Below, piece after piece: positions 24,034-31,097 of a DNA stretch of 64,000 nt (its first letter is position 1; each line of letters begins with the position of its first letter). The translations under genes and the position numbers were made by a program. The notes below the pieces were generated by a model. That model was not told the origin of the DNA and ran no database searches. It was given only the letters and a program-made list of their open reading frames with translations. Source of the stretch: Haladaptatus cibarius D43 (GTDB taxonomy: Archaea; Halobacteriota; Halobacteria; Halobacteriales; Haladaptataceae); assembly GCF_000710615.1 (NCBI RefSeq), contig NZ_JDTH01000001.1, positions 434,001-498,000 on the forward strand, in the 5' to 3' direction.

Positions 24034-24051
24034 ATGATTTCAGCATGGTGA
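24034..24051 (+). CDS. Five-codon upstream frame overlapping phnD
   Basis: ATG-ATT-TCA-GCA-TGG-TGA would encode MISAW and ends 6 nt inside phnD, in another frame. Its ATG sits where transcription should start according to the TATA box. It may be a translated leader that couples to phnD, or chance. No protein function is implied. Confidence 0.25.
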   Translation: MISAW

Positions 24052-25064
24052 AACGACGCACCTTCATCCGAACCGCGAGTGCCGCAGGAATACTCGGTCT
24101 TGCTGGTTGCACGGGCGACAACGACGATTCCGGCAACGACGGCGACGGAAGCACGACGCCCGGAACGGGTACGGGAACCTCAACGAAGAGCGGTGACGGT
24201 GAGACGGTCAACTTCATCCTCACGCCCGCCGAGGCGTCCGTGAACGTCAAACAGCAGTACAAGGGACTGTTCGACTACATCGAAAGCGAAACCGGTGTCA
24301 CGGTCGAATCGACCAAAGCGGCAAGCTACCCCGCCGTGTTTCAGGCGCTCAAAGGCGGACGCGGTGACCTCGCTGATGCATCGCCCACGCTGGCAGTCGT
24401 CGGCGACGAGGAGAACGTCACCGATGTCGTCGGTATCCGCGTCGCATACGGTTCGGCAAAATACTTCTCGCTCATCTCCACCACCCCGGACAGTGGTGCC
24501 AACAACCTCTCCGACCTCGAAGGCGAGTCCGTCACGTTCGGTTCCAAAATCTCGACCAGTGGGTCGCTCTTCCCGCTCTACATGCTCCAAGAGGCGGGAC
24601 TCGACATCGGCAACGCCCCCGAAGGAACTCCGAATGGTTTCGACGGTCAGTGGGCCGGTGACCACGACACTGCACTGAATCAGATGATGAACCGACCCGA
24701 CGTAATGGCGGCAGGGACGGGTGCGTTCGTCGCCGCACCGCACATTCCGAAAGACCAGTTCCCATCACGGTTCAAAGAGATGTCCTCCGAGTTCGACAAC
24801 GCCGGAAGCGAAGACGAGGAACTGAAACTGCTGAAGGCGTCGCAACCGATTCCGCGCGCTCCGATTCTCTCCCGCTCCAACTGGGATTCGCCGAAGCGTG
24901 AGGAAGTCGAGCAGGCGCTTATCGACGCAACCGAAGAAGACCTCAAAGGCGACGCAAGCGGCGACAACGAACTCTGGTTCACGGGCGTCCAAGAAGGCGA
25001 CGTGAACGACTACGACCCTGTCAAGAACGTCAAAAACTCGCTCGGTCTCGAATTCGGCAACTAA
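24045..25064 (+). CDS. phnD: Phosphonate/phosphate ABC transporter substrate-binding lipoprotein
   Basis: A 339-residue extracytoplasmic binding protein. A Tat-type signal (RRTFIR at 4-9) leads to the lipobox LAGC with C22, so it is lipid-anchored. A Gly/Thr/Asp-rich linker is followed by the PhnD fold (about 45-335): FILTPAEASVNVKQQYKGLF, LKGGRGDLADA, GSKISTSGS. The family binds phosphonates, phosphite or phosphate. It heads an operon with phnC and phnE. No C-P lyase genes occur in the window, so the true ligand is open. Confidence 0.92.
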   Translation: MVKRRTFIRTASAAGILGLAGCTGDNDDSGNDGDGSTTPGTGTGTSTKSGDGETVNFILTPAEASVNVKQQYKGLFDYIESETGVTVESTKAASYPAVFQALKGGRGDLADASPTLAVVGDEENVTDVVGIRVAYGSAKYFSLISTTPDSGANNLSDLEGESVTFGSKISTSGSLFPLYMLQEAGLDIGNAPEGTPNGFDGQWAGDHDTALNQMMNRPDVMAAGTGAFVAAPHIPKDQFPSRFKEMSSEFDNAGSEDEELKLLKASQPIPRAPILSRSNWDSPKREEVEQALIDATEEDLKGDASGDNELWFTGVQEGDVNDYDPVKNVKNSLGLEFGN

Positions 25065-25164
25065 CCGTTCGAATCGTTTCGCACCTCTTTAATATCGAAC
25101 TGCTTTCTACCTTCATACGAAGCGGTCAACGATTGGCCTATGGCGGGTAAACACGGATACAAGA

Positions 25165-25926
25165 ATGAGCACCATCAAAGTAGAGAACCTTAGTAAATCG
25201 TACGGTGATGTGCAAGCACTCAAGGACGTGTCGTTCGAGATACCCGACGGCGAGTTCGTCGTCCTTCTCGGCGAGTCCGGTGCAGGGAAATCGACGCTTC
25301 TTCGCTGTCTGAACGGACTGACGAAGCCTACTTCGGGAAGCGTCACCATCGGCGGCGAACCGATTACCGGGCCACGGGACGACGTGGCGATGATTTTCCA
25401 GCAACACTACATCATCGGTCAGTTGAGCGCGTACGCGAACGCACTCACTGGGTCACTCAACCGAACGTCGTTTTTCCGGAGTCTGTTCCAGTGGAACGAC
25501 AGGGCGGACAAAATGGAGGCCCTTCGTGCGCTCGACACTGTCGGACTGCTCGACGAAGCAGGCCAGCAAGCGAGTCGCATGAGCGGGGGACAGCAACAAC
25601 GAGTCGGTATCGCTCGCGCGTTGGTTCAGACGCCGAACCTGCTGCTCGCGGACGAACCCGTCGCGAGTCTCGACCCAGCGAGCGCGGAAAGTGTGATGGG
25701 ATACATTCGGAATGCGGCGGGCGAACGGGATTTGACGACGATTGCCAGTCTCCATCAAGTCAACTTGGCGCGGGAGTTCGGTGACCGATTCCTCGGTATG
25801 AAAGGTGGGGAAGTCGTCTTCGACGGCTATCGTGAGGACTTCTCCATCGACGTGGTGGACGAAATATACGGCAACATTCAGACGGAAGCGATTCGCGGCA
25901 ACGAAGAAACTGAGGCAAACGCATGA
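25165..25926 (+). CDS. phnC: Phosphonate ABC transporter ATP-binding protein
   Basis: A 253-residue ATPase of the PhnC type. Walker A GESGAGKST is at 36-44, the signature MSGGQQQR at 139-146 and Walker B LLLADEP at 159-165. It powers uptake through PhnE. It lies 100 nt after phnD and its TGA overlaps the phnE ATG (ATGA), so translation of the two is coupled. Confidence 0.93.
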   Translation: MSTIKVENLSKSYGDVQALKDVSFEIPDGEFVVLLGESGAGKSTLLRCLNGLTKPTSGSVTIGGEPITGPRDDVAMIFQQHYIIGQLSAYANALTGSLNRTSFFRSLFQWNDRADKMEALRALDTVGLLDEAGQQASRMSGGQQQRVGIARALVQTPNLLLADEPVASLDPASAESVMGYIRNAAGERDLTTIASLHQVNLAREFGDRFLGMKGGEVVFDGYREDFSIDVVDEIYGNIQTEAIRGNEETEANA

Positions 25927-26939
25927 GTGGGAAACCGGGAGAACGGATACGAGCGTACTTTGGTATCGGCTACAGCGGTGAAAACAACGTCGAACGACGC
26001 TTGATGGATTTAAAACGGGCCAAGACGGTAAAACGGCTCGGATGGCTCGTCGGGTTTGCTGGATTCGCGTATCTCTTTTTGTTCTCGCTTTCGCAGGTCA
26101 ACTTCTCGATTTCGGAACTCATCGAATACTGGCCCGTCTTCCGCGATGCACTCGGGGAGTTCTTCCCGATAACGACCTACTTCGGCGTGATTCCATTCAT
26201 CGACTTCGGTCAGTACTGGCAGTTCATCACGGTCGAACAACCGGTTCAGAACGGAACGTCGTTCACGGAAGCCGCGTTGACGACGCTCGCAATCGGGTTC
26301 GCGGGAACCGCTCTCGGTGTTCCCGGTGCACTTCTCTTCGGCGTTCTCGGCAGTGAGCGAGTGACGCCCTTCCCGTTCAACTTCATCTTCCGCGGCGTGA
26401 TGAGCACTATTCGCTCGATTCCCGCGCTGGTGTGGGCAATCATCTACATTCCGCTCGGTGGACTGTCGCCGTTCACGGCGACCCTCGCAATCGGGACGGA
26501 CACCATCGGAAATCTCGGACGACTGTTCACCGATGCACTGGAAGAGGTCGAAGATGGTCCGATTGAGGCCATCGAAAGTACGGGTGCGAACCGACCGCAG
26601 ACCATCGTCTTTGGGATGCTCAGTCAGGTGTTCACGCCGTTTATCGCGTGGACGATGTACATCCTCGAAATCAACGTCCGAATCGCGGTGACCATGGGGC
26701 TTATCGGCGCAGGCGGTATCGGTGGTATCCTCAACACCCAACAGGGCCTGTTCGCCTACACGAACATGATGGCGACCATCATCGTCATCTTCGTTCTCGT
26801 CGTCTCCGTCGAGATGATAAGTCAGCGAACTCGGTCGTATCTCCGCGGCGACGGCGAAGACCACGGCGGATTCTTCCAGCACCTCATCGACCTGATTCGG
26901 GGCTTCCCACAGCGGATGAGCGAATCCGCGTGGCGATAA
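25923..26939 (+). CDS. phnE: Phosphonate ABC transporter permease
   Basis: A 338-residue membrane protein with about six helices and the ABC permease EAA loop region (ALEEVEDGPIEAIESTGANRPQ near 200-222). FRGVMSTIRSIPALVWAIIY is typical of PhnE. An N-terminal cytoplasmic extension of about 40 residues precedes the first helix. A single permease gene implies a homodimer. It completes the phnDCE operon. Confidence 0.92.
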   Translation: MSGKPGERIRAYFGIGYSGENNVERRLMDLKRAKTVKRLGWLVGFAGFAYLFLFSLSQVNFSISELIEYWPVFRDALGEFFPITTYFGVIPFIDFGQYWQFITVEQPVQNGTSFTEAALTTLAIGFAGTALGVPGALLFGVLGSERVTPFPFNFIFRGVMSTIRSIPALVWAIIYIPLGGLSPFTATLAIGTDTIGNLGRLFTDALEEVEDGPIEAIESTGANRPQTIVFGMLSQVFTPFIAWTMYILEINVRIAVTMGLIGAGGIGGILNTQQGLFAYTNMMATIIVIFVLVVSVEMISQRTRSYLRGDGEDHGGFFQHLIDLIRGFPQRMSESAWR

Positions 26940-27003
26940 CGACCGGTTTGGTTCCAAAATAGCGACTCTTCTTCGACGTTCCATTTTCCCCACACATTCA
27001 ACT

Positions 27004-27010
27004 ATAAATA
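27004..27010 (+). promoter_or_regulatory. TATA box of the propeller-kinase gene
   Basis: ataaata-type sequence ends 22 nt before ATG 27033, so the gene is transcribed separately from phnDCE and probably leaderless. Confidence 0.55.
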
Positions 27011-27032
27011 ACTCGACTCGTTAGCTATCGAT

Positions 27033-29219
27033 ATGAATCCCTCGCCCTCCTCGCTCTCCAGACGCGGGTTTCTCACGGCGTACGGAACAGTCGGCATGGC
27101 CACCGCAGTCGGGAACGCACAGACAACTACCACTACATCGGAGGAAAGCCAGCGGGAACCTGATTGGACGTTTTCGAAGGCCGACATTGATGCGTACTAT
27201 CCGTTCGAAACGGCGGACGGCGTTGCATACGTTCTCGGTTCTTCCGAGTCGGATAGGACGAATCAGTACGAAATCACTCTCTATGCAATCGACCAAGCGG
27301 ACAGAACGACGCTGTGGACGGAAACGCTTCCGTCACTCGCCAATATGGTCATCGAGGATGGCACCGTCTTTGTTACCACCACGACTGGCGATGGTGAGAC
27401 GCAGCAAAACTACGAACTGCGCGCGTTCGATTCGAAAAATGGCGACGAACAGTGGAGACACCCTGTCCATGAGTATCCGCGGCAACTGACGGCCGAGGGT
27501 GACAGTATTTACGTCGCAGGAAATCGCGGAATCGAAGCAATCGACATCGACTCCGGGTCGGAAGTCTGGCAGTCGGACGCCGAAATCGGAGCAGTTCATA
27601 TGCTTTCTCACGTCGGCAGTACGATTTATACCACTACGAACGCTGGAGTGTACGCACTCTCGGACGAGGACGGGAAAGAACAATGGCATCGAGATGGGCA
27701 AAATGTTGGCGGGTCGGATGTCATCGACGCCGATAGAAACCCACTCCGGTTGCAGTTGGCCACCGCAAAGGGCATCCTTTGCCGAAGCGGTTCCACGGTA
27801 GTCTCTTTTGACCCTGAAAACGGCGATACGCAGTGGACGGCCTCCCTCGACAACTCAAGCTATTCGGAACCGGTGCTTCACGAAGACACGGTGTATTTCT
27901 GGGGCGACTCTCTGTTCGCGGTTTCCGTCGGCGACGGAACGATACGCTGGGAGTACGACGAAGCGAACAGACGGGAACGAGGTCGCTCCGTCCTCGTGGC
28001 CGATGGAGCGGTGTTCTCGATAGTCGATCAGACAATCGTCGCGGTGAACTTCGACGGTTCCGAGCGATGGACGTTCGAGTTGCCCGAAGAGGACGACTAT
28101 CGCTTGTCGTGGGGAGACATCGTCGATGGCACTTTTTACGTCGTTCACGGGAGCAAACTGCGCGCGCTTTCCACCGAGGACGGCACTGTCGAATGGTCGT
28201 TTCAACCTGACGAGGAGATGACGACGATATCCGTCTCGGAGGAAGCCGTCCTCCTCGGAACGATGGAATCGCTGTACTGTTTCGACTTGCCCCAGTCGAT
28301 TCCCGATATGCTCGTGGAGGAGACGACCGGCTTTCTCACCTCTGGAGTCGGTATCGCCCTGTCCAGCGTCCTCCTCGGAAGCGGCGTGTTCGTCGCGTAT
28401 CGCCGGATGAACGCGGAACCGGAATCGTCGGACGGAACGCCGAAACCGGAATTGGATTCCGAATCCCAACCTGACTCGAAACCGGAACCCGAACCGGAAC
28501 CGGAGTACGGCCGTCTGGAACGCATCGCCAGCGACGAGTTCACCGAAACCTTCCGGGTTAGAGAACGAAGCGAGGACGGCCCGCGCGTCGTCGTGAAAAA
28601 GCATCTGACCGACTCGAACCTAATTGAGGAGTTCGAATCGGCAGTCGAACGCTGGGCCGACCTGAGCGACCGAAAGGGCGTCGTTCCCGTCCTCGATTTC
28701 GGGGACGACTGGGCCGAACTCCCCGACTACGAGGGCGGGTCGCTCGCCGACAGCGAGCGACCAACGGGAGAGCGAATCAAGGCCCTTTCGGACGCGAACA
28801 TGACCGTTCACAGGGCGCACGGTGACGGACTGATTCACGGCGGACTGAGGCCCGAAACGATTCTGCTCGATGGTGACGGTCGGGGTGGCGTGAGCGACTG
28901 GGAACTCGCCACCGCGTTCACAGACCATCGTGATTCCTCGCCCTACGACGCGCCGGAACAGGTCGCGGGCGAGGCGGCGGACGAACGAACCGACGTGTAC
29001 CGACTCGGCGCGATTGCTTATTTCGTCCTCACTGGCGATGCGCCCGCGGGCGCATCGCCGCCGACAGCGGACGATTCTCCCTCTCTGCAGGACTACTCTT
29101 CCCTCTCCCCGGAACTGACCGACGTGCTTTCGACGGCGATGGCATCCAACCCGGACGACCGGTATCAATCGGTCGTGAAGTTCGACGACATGTTGCGCTG
29201 GGCGACGTTCCGCGCTTGA
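27033..29219 (+). CDS. Tat-exported PQQ-propeller / transmembrane / pseudokinase-like protein
   Basis: A 728-residue predicted type I membrane protein. Order: Tat signal (R10R11, AxA-like GNA at 27-29); PQQ-like WD-type beta-propeller repeats at about 50-415 with recurrent W-x-F/W-T and D-x-x-T/S-G-x-x-x-W units (outside the cell); one transmembrane helix at about 433-455; a Pro/Glu-rich linker at 461-492; and a kinase-fold domain at 493-725 (inside). The kinase part keeps a VAIK-like lysine (K522/K523), a DFG-like D622 in SDWE, APEQ (640-643) and D654. The catalytic HRD is IHGG (601-604), so the Asp is lost, and no glycine-rich loop is seen. This suggests a pseudokinase or a divergent enzyme. 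It sits between phnDCE and a PiT transporter, so a sensing role in phosphorus supply is possible but unproven. Confidence 0.85.
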   Translation: MNPSPSSLSRRGFLTAYGTVGMATAVGNAQTTTTTSEESQREPDWTFSKADIDAYYPFETADGVAYVLGSSESDRTNQYEITLYAIDQADRTTLWTETLPSLANMVIEDGTVFVTTTTGDGETQQNYELRAFDSKNGDEQWRHPVHEYPRQLTAEGDSIYVAGNRGIEAIDIDSGSEVWQSDAEIGAVHMLSHVGSTIYTTTNAGVYALSDEDGKEQWHRDGQNVGGSDVIDADRNPLRLQLATAKGILCRSGSTVVSFDPENGDTQWTASLDNSSYSEPVLHEDTVYFWGDSLFAVSVGDGTIRWEYDEANRRERGRSVLVADGAVFSIVDQTIVAVNFDGSERWTFELPEEDDYRLSWGDIVDGTFYVVHGSKLRALSTEDGTVEWSFQPDEEMTTISVSEEAVLLGTMESLYCFDLPQSIPDMLVEETTGFLTSGVGIALSSVLLGSGVFVAYRRMNAEPESSDGTPKPELDSESQPDSKPEPEPEPEYGRLERIASDEFTETFRVRERSEDGPRVVVKKHLTDSNLIEEFESAVERWADLSDRKGVVPVLDFGDDWAELPDYEGGSLADSERPTGERIKALSDANMTVHRAHGDGLIHGGLRPETILLDGDGRGGVSDWELATAFTDHRDSSPYDAPEQVAGEAADERTDVYRLGAIAYFVLTGDAPAGASPPTADDSPSLQDYSSLSPELTDVLSTAMASNPDDRYQSVVKFDDMLRWATFRA

Positions 29220-29276: not shown

Positions 29277-30551
29277 GTGGTTACTGCGCTACTGGTAGTT
29301 GGACTGTTAGTTGCCGTCTTCGTCGGCTACAACATCGGCGGGTCATCGACGGGCGTCGCGTTCGGCCCTGCGGTCGGAAGCCGAATCATCGGAAAGGTCG
29401 GCGCGGGGGTGTTGTTCACCGCCTTCGCGCTCTGGGGCGGCTGGACGGTCGGCAGAAACGTCATCGAAACCATGAGCGACGGCATCGTTCCGGCGAGCCA
29501 ATTTACGCTCGAAACGAGCGTCGTCGTGCTGTTTTTCGCCGGATTCGCGCTCCTCATCTCGAATCTGTACGGCGTGCCAGCATCGACATCCATGACCGCA
29601 GTCGGGGCAATCGTTGGACTCGGACTTGCGACGGATTCGTTGAACGAGTCGCTCATGTTCACCATCGTCTCAGCGTGGATTGTCGCCCCGTTGGCGGCGT
29701 TCTGGGTCGGGTTTTTCATCGGTCGTTACATCTACCCGTATTTGGACGCCCGATTTTCCTTCTCCAGAATCGAGGGAGGGCTGTTTCGACTCGACCGCTC
29801 GGGGTCGGTTCCGCGACCGACGCTCAACCCCAGGGTCGGAAAACGCGACGTGACTGGGGCGATTTTGGTGCTCGTTATCGCCTGCTACATGGGATTCAGC
29901 GCGGGTGCGTCGAACGCGGCCAACGCCGTCGCCCCGCTCGTCGGCGACGGCTCGATTACCATCGAACAGGGGATTTTGCTCGCTATCGGTTCCATCGGTC
30001 TTGGAGGGTTGACCATCGCCCGCCGAACGCTCGACACGATTGGCGAGGGAATCACCGACCTGCCGATTCTGGCGGCGCTCATCGTTTCGATAATCGGGGC
30101 GACCATCATCACGGTTCTCTCCCGACTCGGGATTCCAGCCAGTCTCGCGGTCAGCACGACCTCGTGCATCATCGGACTCGGATGGGGCCGTGCCAGCCGC
30201 GCCGTGGCACTCACTGACGTGGCGGAATCCGCGATACAGCCGGAACCGGCACCCGACGTTGACCTTTCTGCGGGCGCGCTCATCGCCGAAACGAGCGATG
30301 CCGAGGTGCCGCCCGGCCCGACGATTGGCGACGTTGCGGAGGGTGAAGTGCCGACCCCGCCAAAATCGCGCGACGGTGGCGAGACGCCGGAGGTTCCGCC
30401 AATCGGCGAAGAGAGTATCGAAGAACTGGCGGCCGAGAGCCTGTTCGACCCGGCGGCGACGAGCCGAATCGTCGTTCTCTGGGTTCTTTCGCCCACGATT
30501 TCGGCGGTTGGGTCGTACATTCTGTTCGAGTTCGTGTTAGGAACCGGGTGA
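29277..30551 (+). CDS. pit: PiT-family inorganic phosphate transporter
   Basis: A 424-residue membrane transporter (GTG start) with about ten helices. The two inverted PiT signatures appear as GYNIGGSSTGVAFGP near residue 17 and GASNAANAVAPL near 210, and LYGVPASTSMTAVGAIVG and LGIPASLAVSTTSCIIG are the repeated re-entrant segments. A hydrophilic acidic/Pro-rich loop (about 320-395) precedes the last helix. It imports phosphate with H+ or Na+. The gene begins 57 nt after the propeller-kinase gene, so the two may be co-transcribed. Confidence 0.9.
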   Translation: MVTALLVVGLLVAVFVGYNIGGSSTGVAFGPAVGSRIIGKVGAGVLFTAFALWGGWTVGRNVIETMSDGIVPASQFTLETSVVVLFFAGFALLISNLYGVPASTSMTAVGAIVGLGLATDSLNESLMFTIVSAWIVAPLAAFWVGFFIGRYIYPYLDARFSFSRIEGGLFRLDRSGSVPRPTLNPRVGKRDVTGAILVLVIACYMGFSAGASNAANAVAPLVGDGSITIEQGILLAIGSIGLGGLTIARRTLDTIGEGITDLPILAALIVSIIGATIITVLSRLGIPASLAVSTTSCIIGLGWGRASRAVALTDVAESAIQPEPAPDVDLSAGALIAETSDAEVPPGPTIGDVAEGEVPTPPKSRDGGETPEVPPIGEESIEELAAESLFDPAATSRIVVLWVLSPTISAVGSYILFEFVLGTG

Positions 30552-30653
30552 ACCGACGAGCCGAACCATTGCGAATCGCGGTTCATCGTTCACTCCGATT
30601 CGTGTCGCAACCAGAGAAAATCGCTTTACTCCGTCACAGTCGTGTCCTCGTAC

Positions 30654-31097
30654 ATGGGGGAGCACGTTCTCGTTCCGATAGATGGCTCACCGGCATCGAA
30701 GGCGGCGCTTGACTACGCATTGACCATGCCCGAGGTCAAAATCACGGTTCTCACTGTCGTCAATCCGTTCGACATCGACCCGCTGTCGCCGGGGTACAAA
30801 TCGCCGCTGGGGAAGGCCGGAATGCCTGCGTATTCGCAGGAATGGTATCAAAAAGAGTGGGACAGCGCGAAGGAACTGCACGAAGAACTGCGCGAGAAAG
30901 CGGACGACGTGCCGTTCGAAAGCGTCGTCACGTTGGGGCAACCCGCGCGACAGATAGTCAAACACGCCACCGAACAAGGCGTAGACCACATCGTGATGGG
31001 AACGCACGGAAAAGAAGACCTCTCGAACGTCTTCCTCGGTTCTGTCGCCGAGAAAGTGGCCCATCGCGCGCCGATAACGGTGACGATAGTGAAATAG
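30654..31097 (+). CDS. Universal stress protein (UspA family)
   Basis: A 147-residue Rossmann-like protein. MGEHVLVPIDGSPASKAALDYAL is the usual N-terminus and the ATP-binding motif appears as GTHGKEDLSNVFLGSVAEKV, near 112-131. The start at 30654 is preferred to the GTG at 30642 because a TATA-like tttact lies 24-29 nt upstream. Its function is a stress-related or nucleotide-binding regulator; a link to the upstream phosphate transporter is positional only. It is convergent with the UDG gene, one base between the stop codons. Confidence 0.88.
   Translation: MGEHVLVPIDGSPASKAALDYALTMPEVKITVLTVVNPFDIDPLSPGYKSPLGKAGMPAYSQEWYQKEWDSAKELHEELREKADDVPFESVVTLGQPARQIVKHATEQGVDHIVMGTHGKEDLSNVFLGSVAEKVAHRAPITVTIVK

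Follow-up and report, generated by a model that had tools for sequence, protein, structure and literature searches.

A putative transmembrane propeller-pseudokinase encoded beside a PiT permease gene in Haladaptatus cibarius D43

Within a 64,000-nucleotide stretch of the Haladaptatus cibarius D43 genome (referred to here as the window), we identified a gene whose 728-residue product combines a twin-arginine (Tat) signal, a PQQ/BamB-type beta-propeller, a single transmembrane helix and a kinase-homologous domain with altered catalytic motifs. On balance, we favour the reading that this protein is a type I transmembrane pseudokinase receptor or scaffold, possibly tied to transporters.

Domain layout, topology and propeller

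The gene and the regions of its product are as follows.

27033–29219, + strand: open reading frame, 728 aa, ATG start
27033–27122, + strand: Tat signal region, with SRRGFL at residues 9–14 (27057–27074)
27153–28292, + strand: PQQ/BamB-type beta-propeller, residues 41–420, predicted extracellular, with nine Trp-docking motifs
27900–27902, + strand: W290, candidate functional site
28110–28112, + strand: W360 of the W360-G361 (WG) motif
28341–28397, + strand: single Gly/Ser-rich transmembrane helix, residues 437–455, with YRR directly after it
28413–28508, + strand: acidic, Pro/Glu-rich linker, which differs from species to species
28509–29216, + strand: Hanks-type pseudokinase domain, residues 493–728, recognised by Pfam, phmmer, profile and alignment

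Of the sequences in our alignment, which comprised the window protein and 31 relatives, 19 fall into the orthologous clade and 10 into a clade of Halorussus paralogues. The genomes called Halorussus are presumed to belong to that genus from general knowledge of the family. The nearest named relatives of the window protein are from Haladaptatus litoreus (87%), H. pallidirubidus and H. salinisoli, together with Halomicrococcus gelatinilyticus, which carries two copies of the gene. In samples of about 390 order-level and about 390 class-level genomes, full-length high-scoring members were confined to three genera of the window's own family. Matches beyond these genera were mostly propeller-only or kinase-only, the exceptions being distant propeller-kinases such as L095 and L096. 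Relative to the closest relative, dN/dS is about 0.26 for the gene and about 0.05 for the neighbouring PiT gene, indicating purifying selection on a sequence that is constrained yet evolving faster than its neighbour; decay of the window's copy of the gene was ruled out on this basis.

An earlier, sequence-only reading of this locus had proposed the order Tat signal, propeller, one helix, Pro/Glu linker and kinase fold, and this order was borne out by motif, Pfam, hydrophobicity and profile analysis. Twin-arginine motifs of the RR.[FL] type recur among the homologues, and residues 437–455 (KD 1.81) form the sole strong hydrophobic stretch outside the propeller. At least 18 of the 19 orthologues share the helix residues S437 and G440 and, directly after the helix, Y456 and R457. 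Because of the Tat signal and the positive-inside rule, by which YRR would be cytoplasmic, the natural reading of the topology is a propeller outside and a kinase-like domain inside.

The propeller was recognised by Pfam as PQQ_2 (E 2.8e-28), and its blocks in the full-length AF2 model, built from six sequences, have pLDDT values mostly of about 80–90 (residues 41–420). This model matches tetrathionate hydrolase and BamB in Foldseek (E about 1e-17 to 1e-14), and the propeller's PDB matches found by phmmer are designed and natural PQQ propellers. Scores against the equivalog models lie far below the cut-offs, at 71.2 bits for BamB (TIGR03300; curated cut-off 285.2) and 60 bits for AfsK (NF053615; cut-off 1300). 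Trp-docking motifs occur at nine regularly spaced positions (W45, 95, 141, 179, 218, 268, 306, 346 and 388), as they do in L074, L076 and L084, and the model contains eight blades of four strands each and a further three strands that the first strand closes. Together, the motifs and the modelled blade count suggest a propeller with nine blades instead of the usual eight.

Two tryptophans distinguish the orthologous clade. W290 is present in all 19 orthologues and in none of the 13 paralogues and outgroups examined, and the W360-G361 motif occurs in 16 of the 19 orthologues and is missing from the paralogues. None of the propeller's Arg, Lys or His residues is shared by 18 or more of the 19 orthologues, which argues against a conserved phosphate or anion pocket. 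This tryptophan signature, combined with the lack of a basic pocket, suggests that the ligand may be a carbohydrate, an aromatic compound or a protein.

Kinase homology and catalytic residues of the inside domain

The landmarks of the inside domain are the following.

28596, + strand: K522
28836–28844, + strand: HGG at the HRD position
28896–28904, + strand: DWE at the DFG position, including D622
28950–28958, + strand: APE
29181–29201, + strand: FDDMLRW

The search of the inside domain against kinase profiles that the sequence-only reading had recommended supports its description of a kinase-like module. By phmmer the domain matches PknB in the PDB at 9.4e-15, and a ten-sequence profile of Haladaptatus and Halomicrococcus inside domains matches PknB with E 1.7e-21 at positions 18–225 of 237, spanning both lobes. 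Matches of this strength over almost the whole domain indicate that the kinase homology is not due to chance. The Pfam Pkinase match (E 2e-7) scores 31.1 bits, 0.6 bit under the cut-off of 31.7. Modelling of residues 492–728 alone, with six sequences, gave a pLDDT of 39.5, and nothing past residue 420 is reliable in the full-length model; the kinase fold is assigned here from sequence homology.

The pseudokinase character also stands, and the residue numbers given earlier for IHGG (601–604), K522/K523 and D622 are correct for the window protein. None of the 29 family members (19 orthologues and 10 close paralogues) has the HRD aspartate, the motif reading HGG in Haladaptatus and Halomicrococcus and mostly HGR in Halorussus. 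At the position of the beta3 (VAIK) lysine, the orthologues have Glu (16), Arg (1) or Ala (1), and only the window protein has Lys. The metal-binding Asn of the catalytic loop is replaced in 19 of 19 orthologues, and the position aligned with the alphaC Glu is occupied by Ala, Ser or Gly. The DFG position is Asp in 11 of the 19 orthologues and Gly or Glu in the other 8. The earlier remark that K522/K523 and D622 remain thus describes the window protein accurately, but K522 is not conserved among orthologues and D622 is conserved only in part; with Glu dominating the beta3 position, K522/K523 were ruled out as catalytic remnants. Similarly, the Gly-rich loop is degenerate in the window protein, as had been noted, but it is partly retained in Halorussus relatives (LGGGPVTETY).

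Based on these losses, the inside domain is very probably a conserved pseudokinase without phosphotransfer. Haladaptatus and Halomicrococcus retain D622, APE and the alphaF Asp (D654), which could be taken as signs of a non-canonical active kinase-fold enzyme that works through D622 and other residues, like some atypical kinases or AMPylases. We consider this highly improbable: the losses include Lys, alphaC Glu, HRD Asp and loop Asn, 8 of 9 Halorussus orthologues have Gly or Glu in place of the DFG Asp, and the Gly loop is degenerate. The haloarchaeal propeller kinase L095 (from G354), an outgroup in the pseudokinase tree, retains HLDLKPEN and DWG and is probably an active kinase. Active relatives therefore probably exist, and the pseudokinase family has the appearance of a derived branch that became inactive.

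Sequence conservation is concentrated in the inside domain. Compared with the more distant Haladaptatus and Halomicrococcus sequences (the two closest species excluded), the pseudokinase domain is 56–67% identical and the propeller 26–44%, and the FDDxxRWA end and the DxYR.GA segment of the inside domain are near invariant. This pattern counts against a protein in which the propeller acts outside the cell, in a BamB-like way in envelope assembly or adhesion, with the inside domain reduced to a vestigial anchor, since the inside domain is conserved more strongly than the propeller. The model's match to BamB and the deletion or breakage of the gene in some genomes (G002, and a frameshifted copy in G120) speak for such a role, which we nevertheless regard as quite improbable. 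A defence role was dropped after the PADLOC matches proved to be generic kinase-domain matches.

Gene neighbourhoods of orthologues and paralogues

The gene lies between a phnDCE cassette and a PHO4/PiT gene, as the sequence-only reading had located it. The neighbouring features are these.

24045–26939, + strand: phnDCE-type ABC importer cassette
24045–25064, + strand: phnD
25165–25926, + strand: phnC
25923–26939, + strand: phnE
27003–27011, + strand: promoter-like TATAAATAA, which starts 30 nt before the ATG and fits a leaderless haloarchaeal transcript
29277–30551, + strand: PiT/PHO4-family permease (PF01384, E 1.1e-39), 57 nt downstream of the pseudokinase gene
30642–31097, + strand: universal stress protein (Usp; PF00582), following PiT in a conserved PiT-Usp pair

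The most regular association is that with PiT. All 8 Haladaptatus genomes with an intact copy have PiT and then Usp downstream of it, with a gap to PiT of 53–69 nt, including species with a rearranged downstream flank (L067, L068), and co-transcription of the two genes is likely. The promoter box occupies the same position in all eight, with the exact sequence in six and TATATATAA and TTTAAATAA in the other two, from which we conclude that the Haladaptatus gene probably has its own leaderless-type promoter; a box of this type is recognisable in Halomicrococcus as well. In a ninth Haladaptatus species (G002, L073), most of the gene has gone by internal deletion and PiT is kept, indicating that PiT can work without the pseudokinase. 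Two irregular copies were also observed: a plasmid of G006 (L016/L026) carries a C-terminal fragment of the gene with two in-frame TAG codons, and in L071 (G007) PiT is apparently split into two frames past residue 117, by a frameshift or an assembly error.

The phnDCE cassette appears to have been acquired separately. Within Haladaptatus it lies upstream of the gene only in the window strain, G005 and G007, with a phnE remnant in G008, and it is absent from 5 of 8 species that have the pseudokinase gene. Comparison with H. litoreus shows a clean presence/absence segment, with an insertion/deletion boundary, between hisH and the promoter box; co-transcription of phnDCE with the gene in Haladaptatus was judged unlikely in view of this conserved box between them. 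The phnDCE tree is strongly discordant with the pseudokinase tree: the window cassette groups within the type A cassettes of Halorussus (100/99) and the G005 and G007 cassettes fall with type B, the two types being deeply separated and occupying the same hisH site. Moreover, seven Halorussus genomes (L108–L111, L116–L118) have phnDCE at hisH and no pseudokinase gene. From this discordance and these loci, we conclude that cassettes were swapped at the hisH site between Haladaptatus and Halorussus independently of the gene. A second phnDCE, of another type and unlike the hisH-linked cassette, was seen in G008 (L112, contig 27), where it lies with genes that by eye resemble those for C-P lyase and phosphonate metabolism.

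Eight Halorussus genomes have the gene downstream of phnDCE, at gaps of 75–617 nt, and no PiT within the region examined; in a ninth it stands about 11 kb from phnDCE, and the copy in G120 is the frameshifted one. The two Halomicrococcus copies are next to neither PiT nor phnDCE, one of them still lying beside hisH, and the PiT-Usp pair of that genus stands elsewhere, alone. In the pseudokinase tree, Haladaptatus with Halomicrococcus (100/99) is placed beside the Halorussus clade (100/98), and the hisH-(phnDCE)-gene order that these sister clades share most plausibly goes back to a single ancestral locus. Within 60 nt of the start codon in Halorussus L077–L085, we also noted a conserved element like CCCAAACGCTGAAGAGCGCCGAGCGTCC, possibly a promoter or operator.

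Phosphorus-linked sensing, as proposed in the sequence-only reading, is weakly supported by these neighbourhoods. In its strict form, the propeller would bind phosphate, phosphonate or PhnD and the inside domain would control PhnDCE and PiT. A propeller kinase in a phosphate locus has a precedent in Mycobacterium tuberculosis, where pknD shares an operon with pstS2, a gene for phosphate binding (PMC3322341). At 16 of the 19 orthologous loci, phnDCE and/or PiT adjoin the gene on the same strand, and Trp290 is unique to the orthologous clade. However, the 16 loci trace to one ancestral locus in two sister clades, so the counts are not independent, and the independent history of phnDCE, the gene's own promoter, the lack of a conserved basic residue in the propeller and the Halomicrococcus copies all count against a dedicated phosphorus sensor, which we judge unlikely. 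The expectation that relatives would keep phosphate or phosphonate genes next door was right for all eight Haladaptatus loci (PiT) and eight Halorussus loci (phnDCE), but not for Halomicrococcus. What holds of the phosphorus link is the tight, genus-wide pairing with PiT, which is better evidence than phnDCE and is confined to Haladaptatus.

The Halorussus paralogues widen the picture. An NhaC-type antiporter gene (PF03553) adjoins 6 of the 10 members of this sister clade (support 99/97), five upstream and one downstream (L079, L086, L090, L091, L093 and L094, where argS also lies beside), and one further paralogue is followed by a gene that is MscS-like by eye only. With such neighbours, "transporter-associated" is a broader alternative to "phosphorus-linked", although so few loci do not allow a firm claim. 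Each member of the family might then anchor to or regulate its own neighbouring transporter (PiT/PhnDCE in one clade, NhaC or the MscS-like channel in another), with surface cues such as ions or envelope state as the trigger. The occurrence of NhaC in both orders and the much faster divergence of the outside domain agree with this proposal; against it, only two or three neighbourhood events are independent, transporters are common as chance neighbours, and three loci of the clade have no identified transporter next door. We hold it to be conceivable, though doubtful. In L089 (8989–13868), two propeller-pseudokinase genes flank a gene for a 254-aa Cys-rich protein that belongs to no Pfam family, and a relative of this protein is encoded beside the L097 gene.

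Possible mode of action and comparison with known systems

Under the favoured reading of a pseudokinase receptor or scaffold, the N-terminal propeller would reach the cell surface by Tat export, a single Gly-rich helix would anchor the protein in the membrane, and the inside PknB-related fold, having lost phosphotransfer chemistry, would work by binding other proteins, as a switch or a scaffold. When the propeller binds a ligand or a partner at the surface, helix packing or dimerisation may change and with it the conformation of the pseudokinase, allowing the latter to contact a partner in the cytoplasm or the membrane. For Haladaptatus, the best candidate for this partner would be the co-encoded PiT permease or the Usp behind it. 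We consider a signalling or scaffold role reasonably probable, and an action on PiT or phosphorus uptake less likely than not.

Several known proteins share parts of this architecture. PknB, the best sequence match of the inside domain, has intact catalytic residues and carries PASTA repeats outside. PknD resembles the window protein as a kinase with a beta-propeller sensor encoded in a phosphate locus, but its propeller is six-bladed, and it is an active kinase with the opposite domain order. AfsK and RqkA (DR2518) combine a Ser/Thr kinase domain with a PQQ-type propeller, and the AfsK model matches the window propeller; both differ in being active kinases whose domains, in AfsK as in RqkA, follow another order. 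L095 has an RR signal, PQQ propeller, transmembrane segment and kinase in the same order as the window protein, from which it differs by its retained catalytic motifs. Bacterial kinases with PQQ repeats were described in Deinococcus and Streptomyces (PMC1262709), and RqkA is reported to be stimulated by PQQ (PMC11007091).

The actinobacterial pseudokinases ActPs1 also carry a pseudokinase and PQQ_2 on one polypeptide, with all three catalytic motifs changed (PMC12599244). They differ from the window protein in being bacterial and in the reverse domain order, the pseudokinase being N-terminal to PQQ_2, and no Tat signal is mentioned in the passage on them; bacterial pseudokinases have seen little experimental study (PMC12599244). 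In the literature searched, we found nothing on the present propeller-pseudokinase family and no archaeal pseudokinase with an outside propeller. PQQ-pseudokinases (ActPs1) and propeller kinases (AfsK, RqkA and PknD) are a known kind of protein; what the present family adds is the reversed domain order, with a propeller exported by Tat, the archaeal host and the recurrence of transporter genes next door.

For the Haladaptataceae as a whole, the family might consist of dedicated transporter partners, each paralogue having its own transporter (PiT/PhnDCE, NhaC or an MscS-like channel) and surface cues, sensed by the fast-evolving propeller, tuning that transporter through direct, non-catalytic contact by the kinase fold; we regard this generalisation as rather unlikely. 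The 19 orthologues and 10 paralogues nevertheless form a defined set with clear outside and inside halves, in which transporters recur as neighbours and some copies have been lost naturally. Should the pairing with PiT prove functional, it would represent a non-catalytic route controlling phosphate uptake in archaea.
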